From contig JAFXQM010000007.1 of assembly GCA_017527075.1 (NCBI GenBank), positions 62,001-126,000 on the forward strand: a stretch of DNA of 64,000 bases, in the 5' to 3' direction. Each line of letters opens with the position of its first letter. Position 1 is the first letter of the stretch. The notes beneath the pieces were generated by a model that did not search any database, was not told the DNA's origin, and saw nothing but the letters and a program-made list of their open reading frames with translations. The position numbers and the translations under genes were made by a program. This DNA comes from Selenomonadaceae bacterium. GTDB lineage: Bacteria > Bacillota > Negativicutes > Selenomonadales > Selenomonadaceae. Of this stretch, positions 1,604 through 60,310 are shown one piece after another.

Positions 1604-1640
1604 TTCAATTAGGAATTTGGAATTAGGAATTAGGAATGAA
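1604..1640. repeat. AATTAGGAATT dispersed repeat (family 1)
   Basis: Three tandem-like units of AATTAGGAATT with one TTTGG variant, followed by CTTGTCCCT units. The same short motif recurs at 38371-38402, 53043-53120 and 55299-55381, always between genes or at gene ends. Confidence 0.8.
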
Positions 1641-5727: not shown

Positions 5728-7772
5728 CTGTTCAAGAACTTTATGATGAGGCGTGCGCACTGCACAGGGAAAAAAATTTCGACGCCGTGTTGAAAATCCT
5801 CGACGAGATAAAAAGGCGCGACCCGAAATTCAAGCGCGCTTATTACTTGGAGGCGTGGACGTGGGAACTGCTCGGCGATTCCGAGAAAAAAATTCAGGCC
5901 TTGGAAAAAATTTTGCCGCTCCTCAATTTCTCTTCGCCTGAAGAAAAAAAATTCGCCGAAGAAATTTTGCAGCGCGTCTACTCGGCGGCGTGTGAGCAGT
6001 ACAACAAAAAAAATTTCGCCGCGGCTTTGAAACTCCTCGACGAAATAAAAAAGCGCGACCCGAAATTCAAGCGCGCTTATTACTTGGAGGCAAAGGCTTG
6101 GAACGGCCTCGGTGACTCCGAGAAAAAATTTCGTGCGCTGGAAAAAATTTTGCCGCTGTTGGATTTCTCCGCGCCCGAAGAAAAAAATTTTGCCGAAGAA
6201 ATTTTGTGGCTCGTCTACTCGGCGGCGCAGGAGCAACTTGAAAAGAAAAATTTCGCTGCGGTCTTCAAACTCCTCGACGAGATAAAAAGGCGTGACCCGA
6301 CGTTCAGGGCGGCTTATTACTTGGAGGCGCGAACGTGGGATTCGCTCGGCAACTTCGTCAAAGAATATTACGCGCTGGAAAAAATTTTGCCGCTCCTCAA
6401 TTTCTCCGCGCCCGAAGAAAAAAATTTTGCCGCCGAAGTTTTATTCCACCTGGGGGAAGCCTGCGCCGAGTTGTGTCTGTTGGATGAGGCGAAAAATTTT
6501 TGGATGTTGGTCACAAAAATCCTCAGCCCGCCGCAAACCGAACAAGTGCTCAACTCTTTGATTTTCCGAGAGAATTTGCGCGAAGACTCCACGCCCGAAT
6601 CTTTCCGCGCGCTTTACGACGAATACAAAAAATTTTTGGCGGACGTCAAACCTTTCCCGAAAAAATTTTATGCGCACAAAAAAATTCGCGTGGGTTTTCT
6701 CTCCACCGGCTTTTATTCCCATGCCGTGATTGTTCAATCGCGCTCGTTGCTCACTCACCTCGACAAAAATTTTTTCGAAACTTATTTTTACTCGGCGCGG
6801 AAGAAAAAAGATTTTGTCACGGAGCAGTTGCGCGCGACGGCCGACGGCTGGCGAGATATTTTTGACTTGACGGACGCGGACGCGGCGAAGTTGATTCGTG
6901 ACGACGAGATTGACATCCTCTTCGACTTGGACGGATACACGCGGGGCAATCGTCTGCGCGCGGCGGCGTATCGTCCCGCCTCCGTGCAAATGTCCGGCAT
7001 TGGTTACGTGAACAGCACCGGCCTCGACTGCTTCGATTATTTTTTGTCGGATGAAACTTGCGCGGGCGACGAAAATTTTTTCACGGAAAAACTTATCAAG
7101 CTCCCGCACAGTCATTTCTGCCACGAGCCGACGACAAAATTTGAGCCCGCCGAATTTCCGCCGTGTGTGAAAAATAATTTCGTGACGTTCGGCAGTTTCA
7201 ATCAATTTCAAAAGATAACCGACTCGATTTTACGCGCGTGGAAAAAAATTTTGGACGCGGTGCCCTCCTCGCGCCTGCTCCTCAAGACAAAAATTTTTAA
7301 CACGGACGACGGGAAAAATTTCGTCGGCGAACGGCTGAAGGGTTTCGGCTTCGACCTCGGACGAGTGGAAATGCGCGGCTTCTCAAATCAGTATTTTCTT
7401 GAATATGCCGACGTGGACATCGCGCTGGACACTTTTCCTTACACGGGCGGCGTGACGACCTGCGAGGCTCTTTACATGGGCGTGCCCGTCGTCAGCCTTT
7501 ACGGGCAACGCCACGGCTCGCGCTTCGGCTTGAGCATTTTAAAAAATATCGGGCTGGAGGAGCTGGCGGTTGCCTCTTACGACGAATACATTGCCCGCGC
7601 CGTCATGCTCGCCGGTGATTGGGAACTGCTCACGCTGCTCAGAAAAAATTTGCGCCCGATGATGAAAAAATCTCCGCTGATGGATTCGGAACTTTACCTG
7701 CAAGAAATTCAAGCCGCGTTCAAAAAAATTTTGGAGGAAAGCAAACGCGATGAACGTTCAAGAACTTTATGA
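5724..7772 (+). CDS. SPINDLY/OGT-like GT41 glycosyltransferase, copy 2 (three TPR units)
   Basis: 682 aa from the ATG that overlaps the previous stop (ATGA) with TTTTGGAGGAAAGC upstream; an in-frame start farther upstream would lie inside copy 1. Same design as copy 1, but the N-terminal helical unit of 79 residues (each containing LDEIKKRDPKFKRAYYLEA-type sequence, ALEKILPLL and APEEKNFAEEIL) occurs three times in tandem. The GT41 domain keeps GFLSTGFYSHA, DLDGYTRGNRLRAAAYRPAS, FGSFNQFQKI and DTFPYTGGVTTCEALYMG. The C-terminus reads through to KRDERSRTL, so it overlaps the next gene by 23 bp, unlike the KRQ end of copy 1. The substrate is unknown. Extra TPR units should lengthen the acceptor-binding superhelix (inference from OGT structure). 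Confidence 0.85.
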   Translation: MTVQELYDEACALHREKNFDAVLKILDEIKRRDPKFKRAYYLEAWTWELLGDSEKKIQALEKILPLLNFSSPEEKKFAEEILQRVYSAACEQYNKKNFAAALKLLDEIKKRDPKFKRAYYLEAKAWNGLGDSEKKFRALEKILPLLDFSAPEEKNFAEEILWLVYSAAQEQLEKKNFAAVFKLLDEIKRRDPTFRAAYYLEARTWDSLGNFVKEYYALEKILPLLNFSAPEEKNFAAEVLFHLGEACAELCLLDEAKNFWMLVTKILSPPQTEQVLNSLIFRENLREDSTPESFRALYDEYKKFLADVKPFPKKFYAHKKIRVGFLSTGFYSHAVIVQSRSLLTHLDKNFFETYFYSARKKKDFVTEQLRATADGWRDIFDLTDADAAKLIRDDEIDILFDLDGYTRGNRLRAAAYRPASVQMSGIGYVNSTGLDCFDYFLSDETCAGDENFFTEKLIKLPHSHFCHEPTTKFEPAEFPPCVKNNFVTFGSFNQFQKITDSILRAWKKILDAVPSSRLLLKTKIFNTDDGKNFVGERLKGFGFDLGRVEMRGFSNQYFLEYADVDIALDTFPYTGGVTTCEALYMGVPVVSLYGQRHGSRFGLSILKNIGLEELAVASYDEYIARAVMLAGDWELLTLLRKNLRPMMKKSPLMDSELYLQEIQAAFKKILEESKRDERSRTL

Positions 7773-35712: not shown

Positions 35713-36480
35713 ATTCAGTTAGGAGTTAGGAGTTAGGAGTTGAGCTCGGTACTTCGGCAAAAAAAATTCTCCTGCCAAACGGACGGGAGCCGCTGATTCC
35801 TCAGCAAGTGAAATGTATGAGCAATGCCTCCCCATGACGGGGAAAAACTTTTCGCCAAGATTAAATTTTTCGGGCGCGACGAACAAGAGGCCGCCCATGG
35901 ACGGGCGGCCGCCCGCGTTTTTCACGTGATGTGAAAACAGCGGGCACACCGAGCACGGGTAACCTTAACCTTCGAACCACGAACGCTGAGCCGCCCCTGC
36001 GAGGCGCACTTTCTCTTTGCTTCTTTCTCTTTGTGCGCGCAAAGAGAAAGAAGATTTAAAACTCAAAAGAAATTTATCCGCCGAATGAAAGCGACGATGG
36101 GTTCTACGTGTCCACTCTTGAAAAAGAGGGGACACCTCCGCCAAAAGAAAAACGCCCTTTCGCGGGCGCAGGTCAAGCAAAAATCTTTGCGCATTACGAA
36201 TCGCATTGCGCATCGAAAAATCCCCTCCCTGTCACTCGCAAGTCAAACGGTGATTGTTAATCGAGCAGTTCTCCCGACTTCGGCTCTTCGCTCGTCCGCG
36301 CCTTCCCAAGAAAAAATTTTCCCAGTGACATAAATGCAGAGTCGCTCCCCGCTACGGTGACGTGATCGTTTCGGCCTTTGACCGAATTCCCTATTGAGGC
36401 TCGCGCCACTCGATTCAATCGATATGAAATTTTCAACGCGCTTATCTTCTTACAAATCACCGCGCTTGTCAACAAAATTC
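35713..36480. other. Gene-free region with three strong hairpins
   Basis: No convincing gene in 770 bp. It begins with AGTTAGGAGTTAGGAGTT repeats (35717-35740). Strong inverted repeats follow: GGCCGCCC/GGGCGGCC (35889-35910), a perfect 14-bp stem CTTCTTTCTCTTTG/CAAAGAGAAAGAAG with loop TGCGCG (36020-36053), and GTGTCC..CTCTT/AAGAG..GGACAC (36108-36135). A small GCCC/GGGC stem follows. Short frames here lack ribosome sites and look like read-through of repeats. It may hold a structured RNA or a dispersed element. Confidence 0.6.
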
Positions 36481-42468: not shown

Positions 42469-42539
42469 TTCACTTGCTCCAAAAAATTTTTCCGCCATTT
42501 TACAACGGGCGCAAAAAAATTTCCACACCGAATCACGGG

Positions 42540-42885
42540 CGAAAAATTTTCTTCGCGGCTTTTGCTCCACTTCACGGCGGAAAAAATTTTTCACGCGGCT
42601 TTTGCTCCACTTCACGGCGGAAAAAATTTTTCACGCGGCTTTTGCTCCACTTCACGGACGAAAAATTTTCTGCGCGGCTTTTGCTCGACCTCACGATCGA
42701 AAAAATTTCTGCGCGGCTTTTGCTCCACTTCACGGGCGAAAAAATTTTCACGCGGCTTTTGCTCGACCTCACGATCGAAAAAATTTCTGCGCGGCTTTTG
42801 CTCGACCTCACGATCGAAAAAATTTCTGCGCGGCTTTTGCTCCACTTCACGGGTGGAACTAATTTCTGCGCGGCTGAGAAAAAAT
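42540..42885. repeat. 39-40-bp tandem repeat array between the adaptor gene and feoA
   Basis: About nine units beginning GCGGCTTTTGCT at 42555, 42595, 42635, 42674, 42713, 42752, 42791, 42830 and 42870 (last one partial). Two unit types alternate: CCACTTCACGGGCG and CGACCTCACGATCG variants, separated by A-run/T-run tracts. There are no spacers of unrelated sequence. Reading frames through it have no ribosome site. Confidence 0.92.
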
Positions 42886-45609: not shown

Positions 45610-45638
45610 TTGAAAAATTTTTCACCGTGATTTATAAT
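45610..45638 (+). promoter_or_regulatory. Promoter of candidate antitoxin RNA A
   Basis: TTGAAA (45610-45615), 17-bp spacer, TATAAT (45633-45638), a near-consensus promoter. It points toward the small peptide gene on the opposite strand. Confidence 0.8.
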
Positions 45639-45644
45639 ACGCGT

Positions 45645-45738
45645 GTAAGAACCAAAGAATGATCATGTAGTTCCACCGGTACTCACAGACGCAAAAAAAC
45701 CCCCGAGTAAACCTGTTCTGAGCAGGTTCTCGGGGGTT
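45645..45738 (+). ncRNA. Candidate antisense antitoxin RNA A
   Basis: Predicted from the promoter at 45610-45638 to the strong hairpin at 45700-45736. The first 40 nt (45648-45686: AGAACCAAAGAATGATC, CCACC, CTCAC) repeat, in the same orientation, the plus-strand sequence over the peptide start (45842-45873: AGAAGCCAAAGAACAATC, CCACC, CTCAC). The RNA is therefore complementary to the ribosome site and first ten codons of the peptide mRNA. This is the direct-repeat design of the par/Fst type I system. No experimental proof; plus-strand termination is uncertain because no T-run follows. Confidence 0.6.
45693..45738 (-). terminator. Terminator of the small peptide gene A
   Basis: CCCCCGAG (45700-45707) and CTCGGGGG (45729-45736) with an inner AACCTG/CAGGTT stem, then seven Ts on minus (45693-45699). 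A flanking GACGC/GCGTC pair extends the stem. Confidence 0.92.
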
Positions 45739-45768
45739 GCGTCATTTCAGACGCATTTGGCACCCGAA

Positions 45769-45867
45769 TCACCGACGCTTGAGCAGGAAGTCGAGTACCT
45801 TGCCTACGCCGTAATGAATCACGGTTTCAGCCACTGTCTTTAGAAGCCAAAGAACAATCTCCACCAT
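45769..45867 (-). CDS. Candidate type I toxin peptide A (32 aa, hydrophobic)
   Basis: Starts ATG 45865-45867 after an ideal AAAGGAGGTGAGG; ends TGA 45769-45771. Sequence begins MVEIVLWLLKTVAE, has one long hydrophobic/amphipathic helix and ends KVLDFLLKRR. This is the size and charge pattern of type I membrane toxins (Fst, TxpA, Ldr). It has its own promoter, leader hairpin and terminator, and an opposing promoter whose RNA would cover its start. It is too short for usual annotation. Homology to a named toxin could not be tested. Confidence 0.65.
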   Translation of the reverse strand: MVEIVLWLLKTVAETVIHYGVGKVLDFLLKRR

Positions 45868-45918
45868 CCTCACCTCCTTTCCGTCAGCCGGATCGGAGAC
45901 CACGGCGGTGATGACGGC

Positions 45919-45947
45919 ATTTTACAACGGCGCAGAAATTTTTTCAA
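45919..45947 (-). promoter_or_regulatory. Promoter of the small peptide gene A
   Basis: On minus, TTGAAA (45942-45947), 17-bp spacer, TAAAAT (45919-45924). The start would be near 45912, giving a 45-nt leader. Confidence 0.8.
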
Positions 45948-45984
45948 CGATGAAAAAAAATCGGCTTGAAAAATTTTTCGACGC

Positions 45985-46026
45985 AAAAAAACCCCCGAAG
46001 AATCTGTTCGGAGCAGACCTTCGGGG
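45985..46026 (-). terminator. Terminator of leuB
   Basis: On minus, CCCCGAAG (46019-46026) pairs with CTTCGGGG (45993-46000), then a T-run at 45985-45991. It closely resembles the terminator at 45693-45738 (both contain GACGCAAAAAAACCCCCGA on plus). Confidence 0.9.
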
Positions 46027-46037
46027 TTTTGGTTTGT

Positions 46038-52193: not shown

Positions 52194-53048
52194 ATGAAAA
52201 AAATCGTAGCGTTGTTGAGCGCGATAATGATTGTGTGCACGCTGAATTTCTGCGAGGCGGCACGGAAGGCAGTGGCGGTTATGCCGCTGGAAAATGTATC
52301 GGGCTACAGCGAGGAAAAAGTGGCGGATATAATGACGGAGCAGTTAATCGTGGCGATTCATTCGAGCGGCGGCTACACGGTGGTGGAGCGTCCGCAGATG
52401 GGCGCGGTGCTTCGCGAGCAAGGCTTCCAAAACATTGCGGTTGACCCGAGCCAAGCAGTGGAGTTGGGCAAGCTCAGCGGCGCGGATTACACCATGGTCG
52501 GCAAGGTAACGATGGCTTTGGTCGAGGCGAATCCGACGGCGGGCGCGGTGGAGCAGATAAGCGCGATTCTCGGCTTGGGCGATATCGGAGCCATGGCGAG
52601 CGATTACGTCCACAAGTATAAAGGGAAAATCGGTTTGGAATTCCGCTTCGTGGACAACACGACGGGCGAGGTCGTTATCGCCGGCACGGTCGAGGGCTCC
52701 AAGAGCGGCGCGAGTGTCCCCGACGCCTTCAACAACGCCTGCAAGAGTGCCGCAACAAATTTCCTCAAGCAACTGGACATGCTCAATCCTTTCCGCGCGC
52801 GCGTGGCGGCTGTCAGCGGCTCGGACATTTACATTGACCAAGGAGCGGAAGCGGGCATTCGGCAGGGCGAGACGTTGCTGGTCGTGCGCGAGGGAGAACC
52901 AATCGTCGTGAACGGGCGCGTGGTCGCTGTGGAGCAAAAGGAGCTCGGCAAGATTAAAGTCGTCGAAGTCAACTCGGATTACGCGGTTTGTCGGACGGAA
53001 GATTCACTCGTCACGATTCACAAGGGCGACGTTGTTAAAAGAAATTAG
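52194..53048 (+). CDS. Secreted CsgG-family protein with FlgT-like C-terminal domain
   Basis: 284 aa from ATG 52194 (GGGAGGCGAGCCGTC). Signal peptide KKIVALLSAIMIVCTLNFCE. The CsgG-type core is clear: KAVAVMPLENVSGYSEEKVA, TEQLIVAIHSSGGYTVVERP, QMGAVLREQGFQN, GADYTMVGKVTMAL, and the GLEFRFVDNTTGEVVIAGTV strand. The last 90 residues (ARVAAVSGSDIYIDQGAEAG, GETLLVVREGEPI) match the FlgT-C/OB-like domain often attached to CsgG proteins. There is a Cys near the signal end (NFCEAA), so a lipoprotein is possible but the lipobox is poor. It forms an operon with the FlgT-like gene downstream. A family-1 repeat begins at the stop codon. Confidence 0.75.
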   Translation: MKKIVALLSAIMIVCTLNFCEAARKAVAVMPLENVSGYSEEKVADIMTEQLIVAIHSSGGYTVVERPQMGAVLREQGFQNIAVDPSQAVELGKLSGADYTMVGKVTMALVEANPTAGAVEQISAILGLGDIGAMASDYVHKYKGKIGLEFRFVDNTTGEVVIAGTVEGSKSGASVPDAFNNACKSAATNFLKQLDMLNPFRARVAAVSGSDIYIDQGAEAGIRQGETLLVVREGEPIVVNGRVVAVEQKELGKIKVVEVNSDYAVCRTEDSLVTIHKGDVVKRN

Positions 53049-53120
53049 GAATGAGGAATTAGGAATGAGGAATGGAAAAGCGATTCACAATTCCTAATTC
53101 CTAACTCCTAATTCCTAATT
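53043..53120. repeat. Family 1 repeat starting at the CsgG-like stop codon
   Basis: AATTAGGAATGAGG units on plus followed by inverse units AATTCCTAATTCC at 53091-53120, able to fold on each other as a hairpin. The TAG stop of the upstream gene is the first TAG of the repeat. Confidence 0.9.
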
Positions 53121-54473: not shown

Positions 54474-54551
54474 ATGTTGCTTGCTAACTTCTTGGTGGGC
54501 GTCGCGGCAAACGTCGTAGCTTACTTCATTATCAAGTGGCTCGACCGCTAA
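54474..54551 (+). CDS. Candidate type I toxin peptide B (25 aa, hydrophobic)
   Basis: ATG 54474-54476 after GGAAAGGAGGGGACGAGT, TAA at 54549-54551. The peptide reads MLLANFLVGVAANVVAY, then FIIKWLDR: one membrane helix and a charged end, the form of Fst/Ibs/Zor-type toxins. Its leader shares CTCCGAT, CCGGC and GGAAAGGAGG in the same order with peptide gene A. A TTGCC/GGCAA hairpin exposes CCTCC, an anti-SD, in its loop. In the 3' UTR, ACCCCTC (54561-54567) could also pair with the SD GAGGGG. A terminator follows at 54602. Homologues could not be searched. Confidence 0.65.
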   Translation: MLLANFLVGVAANVVAYFIIKWLDR

Positions 54552-54644: not shown

Positions 54645-55352
54645 TCAAACGCGAACTTCGAAGTGCTTGCCCTTTTTGTCGTCGTCGGTTTTGGGCGGAA
54701 GTTTCGCGGGTTTGGGTGGAGGCGGTTTAACTTTTTCCTCGACCGCCTTAAGTCTGCTCGTCGAATCCGCGAACAGCTGAGACGTGGTGAGCGTCGGCTT
54801 GCCCGTGAACAAAAATTTTTTCACGACGATGAGAGCCGCGACCGCCACGAAAATTATCGTGAAAATCCATAAGAAACCGCCGTGCCCCTCGTGATAATTT
54901 ATTTTCGCCACGACGGGCTGACGCTGTTCCGTCGACGCGGGGGGCGGAGTGTAAGCCGACTGCGATTCGCGCGCGTCCATCTCTCTGAACTCGCGCAAAA
55001 CGTCCTGCCCTCTGTCGTAATCGGATTGGGTGTCGGCGACGGGCGCGGGCGATTCGGTTTCACGGCGGGCGGCAGGCGCGGGAGCTTGCGGCTCGTCGGG
55101 GCGTTCGACTGTGCGTTTGGTCAGCGCACCCGAACCGTTGGCGACGGCGTCCTTTGCCTGAGCTTCGGGCGATTCGTCGGAGACTTCAGCCGCAGAATTT
55201 TTTGCGAAGGGCGTTTTGTCGATTCGCGGAGGAGTGGGCGGCGTCGGACGAATTGCGGGCGCGGGTGCCGTCGGCGGTTGCGGGGGCTGAACGGCAATTA
55301 GGAATGTGGAATTAGGAATTAGGAATTGAGCCGACGCAATTTTGTTTTTCAT
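54645..55352 (-). CDS. Pro-rich single-pass membrane protein; N-terminus coded by repeats
   Basis: 235 aa. Residues 20-150 are Pro/Ala-rich and charged (PPQPPTAPAPAIRPTPPTPP). One membrane helix, GGFLWIFTIIFVAVAALIVV, sits near residue 165. The tail is Lys/Pro-rich (EKVKPPPPKPAKLPPKTDDD) and ends KKGKHFEVRV. The first 20 residues (KNKIASAQFLIPNSTFLI) are the translation of AATTAGG repeats, and the start ATG itself lies inside such a repeat with only GGAATTAGGA as a ribosome site, so the true start is uncertain. The layout recalls proteins that span the cell wall or periplasm, but no family is recognised. Confidence 0.6.
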   Translation of the reverse strand: MKNKIASAQFLIPNSTFLIAVQPPQPPTAPAPAIRPTPPTPPRIDKTPFAKNSAAEVSDESPEAQAKDAVANGSGALTKRTVERPDEPQAPAPAARRETESPAPVADTQSDYDRGQDVLREFREMDARESQSAYTPPPASTEQRQPVVAKINYHEGHGGFLWIFTIIFVAVAALIVVKKFLFTGKPTLTTSQLFADSTSRLKAVEEKVKPPPPKPAKLPPKTDDDKKGKHFEVRV

Positions 55353-55381
55353 TCCTAATTCCTCACTCCTAATTCCTAATT
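55299..55381. repeat. Family 1 repeat, two blocks
   Basis: AATTAGGAATGTGG-type units at 55299-55326 and AATTCCTAATTCC-type units at 55351-55381, in opposite orientation, able to pair. They overlap the 5' end of the Pro-rich membrane protein gene. Confidence 0.9.
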
Positions 55382-56474: not shown

Positions 56475-59400
56475 TCATTTCGGAATGTATTGCCCGACTT
56501 GCTTGCTCGAACGATTGACCAGCACGATTGGTTTGCTTGCCGCGTCCTCGAAAGTGATTTGCCCGTCGCCGACAGAAAAGTAAACGTTGCTTCCGTCGAC
56601 AATCGGATTGGAGACCGTGCCCGACATAATCATCACCGTGTCGACGCCCGATTGATAATTTTCAATTACGTCCTTGCCGTCGCCGTCATAATAAATGAAA
56701 GTGTCCTCGCCTGCGCCGCCCGTCAAAGTATCGTCGCCGTCGCCGCCCCACAAGCTGTCGTTGCCCGCGCCGCCGCTGAGTGAATCATTGCCCGCGCTCC
56801 CGACGAGTGTGTCGTTGCCCGCGCCGCCCGATATCGTGTCGCCGCTCACTCCGCCGTCAATGTAATCGTCCTCCGCCGTGCCGATAATTTTGTTTGCGTT
56901 CTTGTTGCCGGTGATGTCGAGCGGGTGGAGAACTGCCGACGCGTTAATCGTGATGACCGAATCTTTATAATCGCGGTAGCCGTTAATGTCGAAGGCGTCT
57001 TCGGTGTAAGCCGTCGTCAACGTGACGCCCGTGCCCTTGGCGTTGAATTCGACAGGATTTTGCTCTTCGGGGTAGGTGTGCTCCGTGCCGTTCTCGTCGA
57101 CGTAAGTGACTGTCAAACCCGCGGCTTTCTTGAGCGTGAGCTTGCCCGAATCAAATTTAAAAATGATGTCGCTTAGGTTCTCGGAAATTTTTGCCGCGCC
57201 CGAAGCCAACGAGATTTTATCCGACGTGTCGTAGTTTGTGATTGTGTCGTTGCCGCCCGCGTAAACGAATGTGTCTTCGTCGTCCGAGCCCGTGAGCAAA
57301 TCGTTGCCCGCCCCGCCTGAGAGCGTCGAGCCGTTGACGTTACTGATGATTGTGTCGGAGCCTTCGCCGCCTTCGAGCAGGGAATATTTTCCGTTGCCGA
57401 CGATTGAATCATCGCCCGACCCGCCGAGTATCGTCATGCGCTGACCCGTGCTCTTTATCTTGTCGTCGAATTCGCTGCCGCTCACGCGTGCCTTTTTATA
57501 ATCCGTGCCGAAGTTGAAGCCGTACTCGTCGCTGCTCACCGTCACTTTGCTTGCCAGGGCAGTCGCCTCCGCCGAAATAATTTTCCCGCTGATTGAAAGC
57601 CCGTCGACGTTTTCCACGCCCTTAATCGTCGCCAGCGTCGCCGCAGATTTTTTCTTCGAGTAGCGGATGATATTGTCTTCGAGCGTGTAACCCGCCGTCG
57701 TGCCCGCGCTCTTGTAAATGGCGGTCGTATTCTTGAGCGTCCACGCCGCCTGCTTACTCGTCGGCGCGTCCACATCCGAGCCGAGCTTGAGCGAGTATCC
57801 GTTGGAAATTGTAACGTCGTTGGTGCCCAGCGATGCCGCCGAAACCGTCACAACTTTTTTGCTGAGCGCGAGCCCGTCCAAACTTTTCACGCCGTCAACC
57901 GTCACCAAAGTCTTGGAAGATTTTTTCGTGTAGGTGATTGAGTTGTCGGCGAGCTTGTAGCCGGCGGTCGTCGTCTGCTGATAAGCGGCGGTGATGCCGT
58001 CGAGTGACCAATCTTTACTCGTCGAAGGTTTGCTTACATTGGAGCCGAGCTTTAACGTATATCCGTCGGAGATTGAAACGTTCTTCGTGCCCAGCGAGGC
58101 CGAGGAAACCGTTACAATTTTTTTGCTGAGCTTGAGCCCGTCCAAATTTTTCACGCCGTCAACCGTCACCAAAGTCTTGGAAGATTTTTTCGAGTAGGCG
58201 ATTGCGTTGTCCGCGAGTGTGTAGCCGGCGGTCGTCGTCTGCTGATAAGCGGCGGTGGTGCCGTCGAGTGACCAATCTTTACTCGTCGAGGGAGCGTCAA
58301 CATCTTTGCCGAGCGCCAGCGTATATCCGTCGGAGATTGAAACGTCCTTCGTGCCCAGCGAGGCGGTCGAGACCGTGACGATTTTTTTGCTGAGCTTGAG
58401 CCCGTCCAAACTTTTCACACCGTCAACCGTCACCAAAGTTTTGGAAGATTTTTTCGAGTAGGTGATTGCGTTGTCCGCGAGCGTGTAACCTGCTGAGGTC
58501 GTCTGCTTGTAAGTCGCCGCAGAATTTTTCAGCGTCCAAGTTTTTGTCGTCGAGGGAGCCGCCATGCCCTTGCCCAACTTCAGCGTGTAACCACTCGTCA
58601 AAAGTTTAAGCGCAGTTCCATTCGTCTTGACTGCCGCTTTGCCAACTGTAATCGACGTGCCGCTCACGTAGAAATTTTTAACCGTCGCGTCGTCGTCCAC
58701 GCCCGAAAATTTTATCGTCTTGATGTCCGCCGTCACGTAGCGGATTGAGTTGCCGCTGAGTTGATAGCCCGCTTTGCTTATGCCCGCCGTCTTGTACACG
58801 CCGTTCGAGTAGGTCGCCTTGGCAGTGGTGGGCGCGGGCACGTCCGAGGCAAGCGCGAGGGTGTAGCCGCCGCTGACAGAAATATCCGTCGCGTTGAGTG
58901 CCGCCTTGGAAACCGTCACAACTTTTCCATCCAACGAAATGCCGTTCAAACTTTTTACGCCGCTGACAGTCGCCAAAGTTTTGTTCGCCGAACCGTAAGT
59001 GGCAACCGTGCCGTCCAGCGTCCAAGAGTAGCTAAAAATTTTTTCGTCGTTGATGTTGACGCTCTCCAAACTCGCCGCGCCCGTCAATGTGATTTTCCCT
59101 TTGCCGACAGTGACGATTAAATCATCGCCGACAAAATCCGTGGAGTATGTGCCGCCCGTGATTTGCAGAGTGCTCGTGGCGTTGAAGCCTTGGATTAAAT
59201 CGTTGCCGTCGCCGCTCGCATATTGGAACAGAATCTTCGCGCCAGTGTTGGAAATGGAGTCGTTGCCTGCCCCGCCGTTGAGTGTCGAGTTCGAGCCGTA
59301 GTTATCAATGTAATCTGAGCCCGCCCCTGCGTTGATTGTCACGTTCTCGCCGTAGTTTTCGATTGAATCGTCTCCGCCGAGAGCTTTAATCGTCGCGCCT

Positions 59401-60169: not shown

Positions 60170-60228
60170 ATTATAAAATATTTTCGGGGCAAAAAAAAGC
60201 CGGCCGCAAAATTTTCTGCGACCGACTC
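60170..60228 (-). terminator. Terminator of the second RTX gene, with -10 of the first RTX gene next to it
   Basis: On minus, GTCGGTCGC (60220-60228) pairs with GCGGCCGGC through G-U pairs, followed by eight Ts (about 60191-60198). A TATAAT at 60170-60175 (minus) just beyond is a likely -10 for the next gene; no separate -35 is evident. Confidence 0.65.
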
Positions 60229-60231
60229 TTT

Positions 60232-60310
60232 AAGCTGTCAGCTTTTAGCTTTCAGCTTTCAGGAAAAGGATTTTTCTAACCGCTAACAGCTAACAGCTAA
60301 CAGCTAACCC
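60232..60310. repeat. Family 2 repeat at the end of the second RTX gene
   Basis: AGCTGTCAGCTTTTAGCTTT, CAGCTTTCAGG, and CTAACAGC units. The TAG stop codon of the RTX gene (60304-60306) is inside the repeat. Confidence 0.88.

Follow-up and report, generated by a model that had tools for sequence, protein, structure and literature searches.

The closest described counterparts of the locus presented here are the par/Fst type I toxin-antitoxin modules, which are found on plasmid pAD1 and as chromosomal homologues and whose toxins form part of the Fst/Ldr superfamily (PMC7472228, PMC3543317). A P/D/S/TxxxG motif is present in 'the majority' of these toxins, not in all of them, and the regulation of Ldr is more like that of hok/sok and does not follow the par manner (PMC7472228). 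Type I modules of Clostridioides produce convergent RNAs with a long complementary overlap (review PMC6563280). The convergence of toxin and antitoxin genes seen with the Clostridioides toxins (NCBIfam NF047374) recurs at our locus, although its peptide does not match that model. The Ldr/Rdl loci of Escherichia coli are chromosomal and multi-copy, as are the modules described below, and Ldr reportedly (according to Weaver) belongs to the same toxin superfamily as Fst, with a tryptophan preceding the charged tail. In ZorO/OrzO, ShoB/OhsC and TisB/IstR-1 the antitoxin is divergent, unlike the layout at our locus. A literature search for such modules in Negativicutes, with Veillonella, Megasphaera and Quinella as particular targets, found none in a collection that does not extend to many subscription papers or to the 2010 survey of type I systems in genomes.

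The locus occupies positions 45610-45947 of a 64,000-nucleotide stretch of DNA from a rumen Selenomonadaceae genome, hereafter called the window. Two facing transcription units can be recognized in its sequence, and these converge on one hairpin (Table 1). The region is very likely a type I toxin-antitoxin module with a par/Fst-like mode of action and a divergent toxin; that it is transcribed, that its RNAs pair in vivo, that the peptide is toxic and that the module has a physiological role are all inferred. An initial annotation of the window had already proposed an unannotated type I module here, and the family conservation and copy-specific matching described below support that proposal at the level of sequence. 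Within 2.5 kb there are three promoter-like sites (1.2 are expected from shuffled sequences), and the two best are the promoters of the module, both exactly as first described. Among the paralogues, the toxin promoter is nearly always TTGAAA-17-TAAAAT, and intact paralogues have nearly the same promoter at the same distance, whereas TATAAT is present in the antitoxin RNA promoter of all 22 paralogue units tested. The antitoxin promoter is therefore the one nearer to consensus.

Table 1. Positions in the window of the features of the candidate module and of an adjacent region.
Feature	Positions	Strand	Remarks
Antitoxin RNA promoter, TTGAAA-17-TATAAT	45610..45638	plus	11/12; RNA start predicted near 45645
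Antitoxin copy of direct repeat, 5' part of plus RNA	45649..45686	plus	complementary to toxin start region
Shared terminator hairpin	45690..45745, core 45700-45736	both directions	fold; strong U-tract for minus RNA, weak for plus
Toxin-like ORF, 32 codons	45769..45867	minus	ATG start, stop codon included; peptide MVEIVLWLLKTVAETVIHYGVGKVLDFLLKRR
Target copy of direct repeat (ribosome site, ATG, first codons)	45842..45873	minus	sequence comparison
Leader hairpin, UCUCC pairs with GGAGG, masks ribosome site	45868..45912	minus	predicted fold
Toxin mRNA promoter, TTGAAA-17-TAAAAT	45919..45947	minus	10/12; RNA start predicted near 45912
Probable relic of second antitoxin gene	45962..46036	plus	-35-like CTTGAAAAATTTTTC fused directly to GACGCAAAAAAACCCCCGA and hairpin

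The terminator hairpin folds strongly and, as the strong terminator of the initial annotation, is followed in the minus direction by a U-tract that corresponds to the A-run at 45693-45699 on the plus strand. A simple terminator scan did not list the hairpin at 45700-45736, and a bulge in the stem is the probable reason. Read on the plus strand, the stem is lengthened by GACGCAA/TTGCGTC, yet the U-tract is weak, and the end of the plus RNA (RNA II) is therefore uncertain. With both ends predicted, the toxin mRNA would span ~220 nt and RNA II ~100 nt, and compared to shuffled sequences they fold with z scores of -4.5 and -6.5, respectively. In the predicted leader hairpin, the Shine-Dalgarno sequence has a probability of being unpaired of 0.03 (7 of 100 shuffles are as low), and the minimum-energy fold also pairs the 5' CACCGCC within the leader. 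A similar hairpin is predicted to cover the ribosome site in most copies. Support from covariation is weak since the helix hardly varies among copies, and a covariation proof was given up because the helix is too conserved. This hairpin, here a prediction, is the counterpart of the 5' stem-loop (5'-SL) of par (PMC7472228).

The 32-codon ORF with an ideal ribosome site that the initial annotation placed on the minus strand is indeed present, with a strong site upstream of its start codon (GGAGGTGAGG-ATG), and it carries no annotation in the rumen Selenomonadaceae genome. A pN/pS of 0.45 indicates purifying selection on the coding sequence. From single-sequence input, AlphaFold models the peptide as a helix broken at G20 (H2-19 and H21-31; pLDDT 85), and the product is probably a 32-residue helical, membrane-acting toxin. 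Its description as hydrophobic is apt in part, as the maximum 19-residue hydropathy is 1.26 compared to 2.2-2.5 in two Fst toxins. This value is low for a membrane-spanning toxin and favours the alternative that both RNAs and their pairing are real but that the small, membrane-associated peptide has a regulatory or signalling role rather than a toxic one, its synthesis being kept low by the antisense RNA. We consider this unlikely, for reasons that emerge from the wider family.

Searches of Pfam and NCBIfam with the peptide or its profile matched no model, and hits in PDB, Pfam and NCBIfam (two designed coiled-coil proteins and other low-complexity entries) were discarded as reflecting hydrophobic stretches only. 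A genome search with PF13955 gave no match, and because its cut-off was passed in 0 of 14 controls as well, the power of this search is low. An Rfam search of the locus returned no credible match. The peptide is missing the P/D/S/TxxxG helix motif, having T11xxxT15 with no glycine at the aligned position, and carries V24, followed by L-D, in place of the tryptophan between helix and charged tail. It is not filed under the curated Fst family because the models of that family are unmatched and the glycine motif is absent.

The plus RNA was initially noted to open with a direct repeat of the toxin start. This repeat is real, if imperfect: GTGAGtACCGGTGGAactacatGATcaTTCTTTGG-TTCT downstream corresponds to GTGAGgATGGTGGA-GATtgTTCTTTGGCTTCT at the toxin start in two matching blocks, with a 7-nt insertion between them only in the RNA copy. 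Taken alone it is only modestly significant, and because an equally high score arises in 62 of 5000 Markov simulations, its significance is drawn from the paralogues. For 22 units, each RNA repeat was paired with each toxin start region and the duplex energy calculated. In 21 of the 22 units the cognate pair takes the first rank, and the cognate total is reached by none of 100000 permutations. The sole failing unit (L044) is decayed, with no toxin promoter and no start codon preceded by a ribosome site. Random places of the same geometry reach rank one in 6.6% of cases (~7%), compared to 95% of the family units, and local composition alone was rejected as the source of the repeat on these grounds. 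Local similarity is mildly raised at the random places too (z 2-7, well below the z 22 of the A3/A4 set introduced below), and the long tandem repeats of the window add to this baseline. These lie at 5770-6432, 42533-42875 and 57772-58507, with periods of 237, 39/117 and 264. Tandem repeats of 7 bases are also scattered through the window (1607-1637, 35717-35741, 53043-53120, 55296-55377 and 60228-60308), several of them of AATTAGG/AATTCCT type in facing orientations.

The duplex of the window RNA repeat with its own toxin mRNA has an energy of -37.9 kcal/mol, whereas its duplexes with four non-cognate paralogues of the genome range from -19 to -23. Across that genome, cognate duplexes span -29 to -44 kcal/mol and non-cognate duplexes -17 to -33. 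The same cognate pattern is given by six Fst plasmid loci used as a positive control (40-50 versus 16-35), five of which are annotated as Fst toxin, the rest having been found by tblastn. Moreover, class A loci have in common the insertion that marks the RNA copy (ACTACATGA), which implies that the repeat is ancestral and has co-varied since, rather than arising each time by fresh duplication. Conservation of both the ORF and the repeat in relatives had been set as a check on the initial annotation, and both prove to be conserved, co-varying copy by copy. RNA II of each paralogue appears to be tuned to its own toxin, and the modules of one genome would be largely orthogonal, recent duplicates excepted. 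The window copy (L001) and its near-identical partner (L002) would cross-react.

Two arrangements occur among the copies. Those of class A have a single shared hairpin and an RNA promoter ~120-140 nt past the stop codon, while those of class B have two hairpin regions and an RNA promoter ~153-180 nt past it. Control in the manner of txpA/RatA or bsrG/SR4, through overlapping 3' ends and cleavage by RNase III and with a secondary role for the direct repeat, would suit a convergent layout equally, and both RNAs have a long terminator stem in common through which their 3' ends could overlap. However, the repeat is conserved and co-varies whereas the overlap does not, and class B copies keep the cognate repeat with separate hairpins and no clearly shared terminator, which makes such control quite improbable. 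The window copy has a loop U-turn motif, YUNR, that most paralogues lack, and a kissing-loop U-turn was dropped as a conserved feature.

Six copies are present in the genome of the window, two of them near-identical (the window copy and L002) and four at 45-61% identity, of which two stand in tandem. This genome is a draft of ~85% completeness, and therefore copy numbers are minima. The window copy is flanked by the gene of a FeoB-associated protein on one side and on the other by what we take, from a reading of the ORF, to be leuB. Copies in the same genome adjoin clpB, a cofD-like gene, a gene for an SRP signal-peptide-binding domain (ffh), mraW and a Mg-chelatase gene. The position of chromosomal modules between such housekeeping genes (clpB, cofD-like, mraW, Mg-chelatase), with no mobile-element gene at those flanks, is a second point in favour of a regulatory peptide. 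Within the genus, full-length homologues occur in 14 of 66 genomes, and the records that carry a name are of rumen Selenomonadaceae, with a Quinella MAG among them. The narrow profile of the window family (A1) detected no convincing homologue in the rest of the class and no relatives among viral contigs; its single match outside the genus was rejected because it lies inside a 211-aa frame. One genome contains a 1.4-kb tandem array of four copies and a fragment. In another genome (locus L007, about 1000-1500), three antitoxin-like RNA genes stand in tandem behind a single toxin. Two of them carry identical repeats and the third a different one, and the additional RNA genes may be extra-dose and orphan antitoxins.

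Decayed copies also occur in the genus. Between the module and leuB, the region 45962-46036 shares repeats of 18 nt (94%) and 19 nt (100%) with the intact RNA gene and is likely the relic of a further antitoxin RNA gene, whose hairpin may now end leuB. Both this resemblance to a relic and the existence of decayed copies could suggest that the window module is itself decayed and silent. This is very improbable, since the window copy retains its ORF, ribosome site, both promoters, hairpin, terminator and cognate repeat, and near-identical L002 keeps the same parts.

A pattern search for the RNA gene found that the same RNA and terminator also face different small ORFs. This search yielded a second peptide family, A3 (ANV...DWLKK), and through A3 a broad unannotated family, A4, with the consensus NVxSYxICKWLD ('KWLD'). 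The A3 profile detects members in 45 of the 66 genomes of the genus and, at lower scores, elsewhere in the class, in further genera and families. A4 relatives are found elsewhere in the phylum, on small plasmids (of streptococci, aerococci and others, where they are unannotated) and on viral contigs. The plasmid matches (H101-H130), which are KWLD-type peptides, come from small plasmids of Streptococcus, Aerococcus, Ligilactobacillus and Enterococcus, with no annotated gene in the listed rows, and might be unannotated plasmid maintenance modules. Three KWLD relatives match NCBIfam NF047374 weakly (best E 0.0028; 18 bits against a cut-off of 60 bits). When the repeat test was applied to 54 A3/A4 units, rank one was reached downstream in 34 and upstream in eight, compared to 7.6% for random places. 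The latter eight are like the ZorO/OrzO, ShoB/OhsC and TisB/IstR-1 type. KWLD-type peptides with the start-region repeat upstream include L118, L121, L130, L135, L136 and L106, which suggests a divergent rather than a convergent antitoxin RNA for them. The window itself has a second unannotated small ORF of the KWLD family at 54474-54551 on the plus strand (MLLANFLVGVAANVVAYFIIKWLDR), with a strong ribosome site. The repeat test found no repeat on either side of it, and an upstream divergent RNA is possible, although unsupported by this test. Further A3/A4-type modules in the same genome (G000), at C24:17514, C24:17892, C24:121490 and C21:157281, bring its small-peptide modules to at least about eleven.

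The KWLD family also connects the window peptide to Fst. Comparison of the window family with the A4 profile gives a score of 27.2, and hhalign over the full length a Prob of 91.5 (E 8e-7), while the ungapped alignment of A4 with seven Fst toxins scores 26.8. For both scores the shuffled maximum is 15.2, and none of 60 nulls is as high. A direct profile comparison of the window family with Fst is not significant. In the chain from A1 through A4 to Fst, V24-L-D of the window peptide aligns with W-L-D of A4 and with V-L-D of Fst from pAD1, and one A4 member (L131) has PxxxN where Fst has PxxxG. By these profile comparisons, the candidate toxin of the window is a remote, transitive relative of Fst via the KWLD family. 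This relatedness, the multi-copy tandem arrays with decaying copies, and the KWLD relatives on small plasmids and viral contigs all fit toxins better than they fit a regulatory or signalling peptide.

Overall, the type I module reading is supported by the anatomy of the locus, its conservation, copy-specific matching, selection on the coding sequence, the relation of its peptide to KWLD and that of KWLD to Fst. At the level of sequence, the locus shares with par/Fst convergent promoters, an RNA II that repeats the toxin start in two blocks, a predicted leader hairpin over the ribosome site, an mRNA of ~220 nt (predicted here), a helical peptide of 32-33 residues with a charged tail, and V-L-D before this tail, the valine standing in the place of the family tryptophan as it does in Fst of pAD1. 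One hairpin lies between the two genes, as in par, with a strong U-tract for the toxin mRNA and a weak one for RNA II. The analogy with par/Fst drawn in the initial annotation is supported by the fit of layout, direct repeats, leader hairpin and predicted transcript sizes. In contrast, the locus differs from par/Fst in its lack of a Pfam PF13955 or NCBIfam match and of the APxxxG motif, its lower hydrophobicity, a link to Fst only via the KWLD family, its multi-copy arrays, the two separate terminators of some paralogues, and its host, a Negativicute. The points counted against the par/Fst reading are the lower hydrophobicity, the absent APxxxG, the non-significant direct profile comparison with Fst, the weak U-tract of RNA II, the unconserved YUNR, the separate hairpins of class B and the mild excess of local similarity at random places. 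The module would therefore be par/Fst-type by mechanism while standing outside the curated Fst family.

In the mechanism we propose, the minus promoter would produce an mRNA of ~220 nt (RNA I) for the 32-residue peptide, with the leader hairpin keeping its ribosome site closed, and the plus promoter, nearer to consensus, would produce RNA II of ~100 nt. The terminator hairpin common to both RNAs would permit them to meet loop to loop, whereupon the 5' part of RNA II would pair with the ribosome site and first codons of RNA I and block translation.

Because their peptides are tiny and their antitoxins are RNAs, type I modules are severely under-annotated. We lean slightly towards the view that Negativicutes carry a large unannotated par-type superfamily, composed of KWLD and the divergent branch of the window. 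In rumen Selenomonadaceae it would have expanded to ten or more modules in a single genome, whose antitoxin RNAs would be mutually orthogonal. Its layouts would number at least three, with a shared terminator, with separate terminators or with the repeat upstream, and its conserved core would be the repeat-based recognition code alone rather than the shared terminator. Comparison among the dozens of natural toxin/RNA pairs, which differ in sequence, makes the par recognition code testable and could show which repeat positions determine specificity and whether a shared terminator is required. KWLD would serve as an unannotated bridge family between Fst and sequences missed by curated models, and par-type modules would be extended to the diderm Firmicutes of the rumen.
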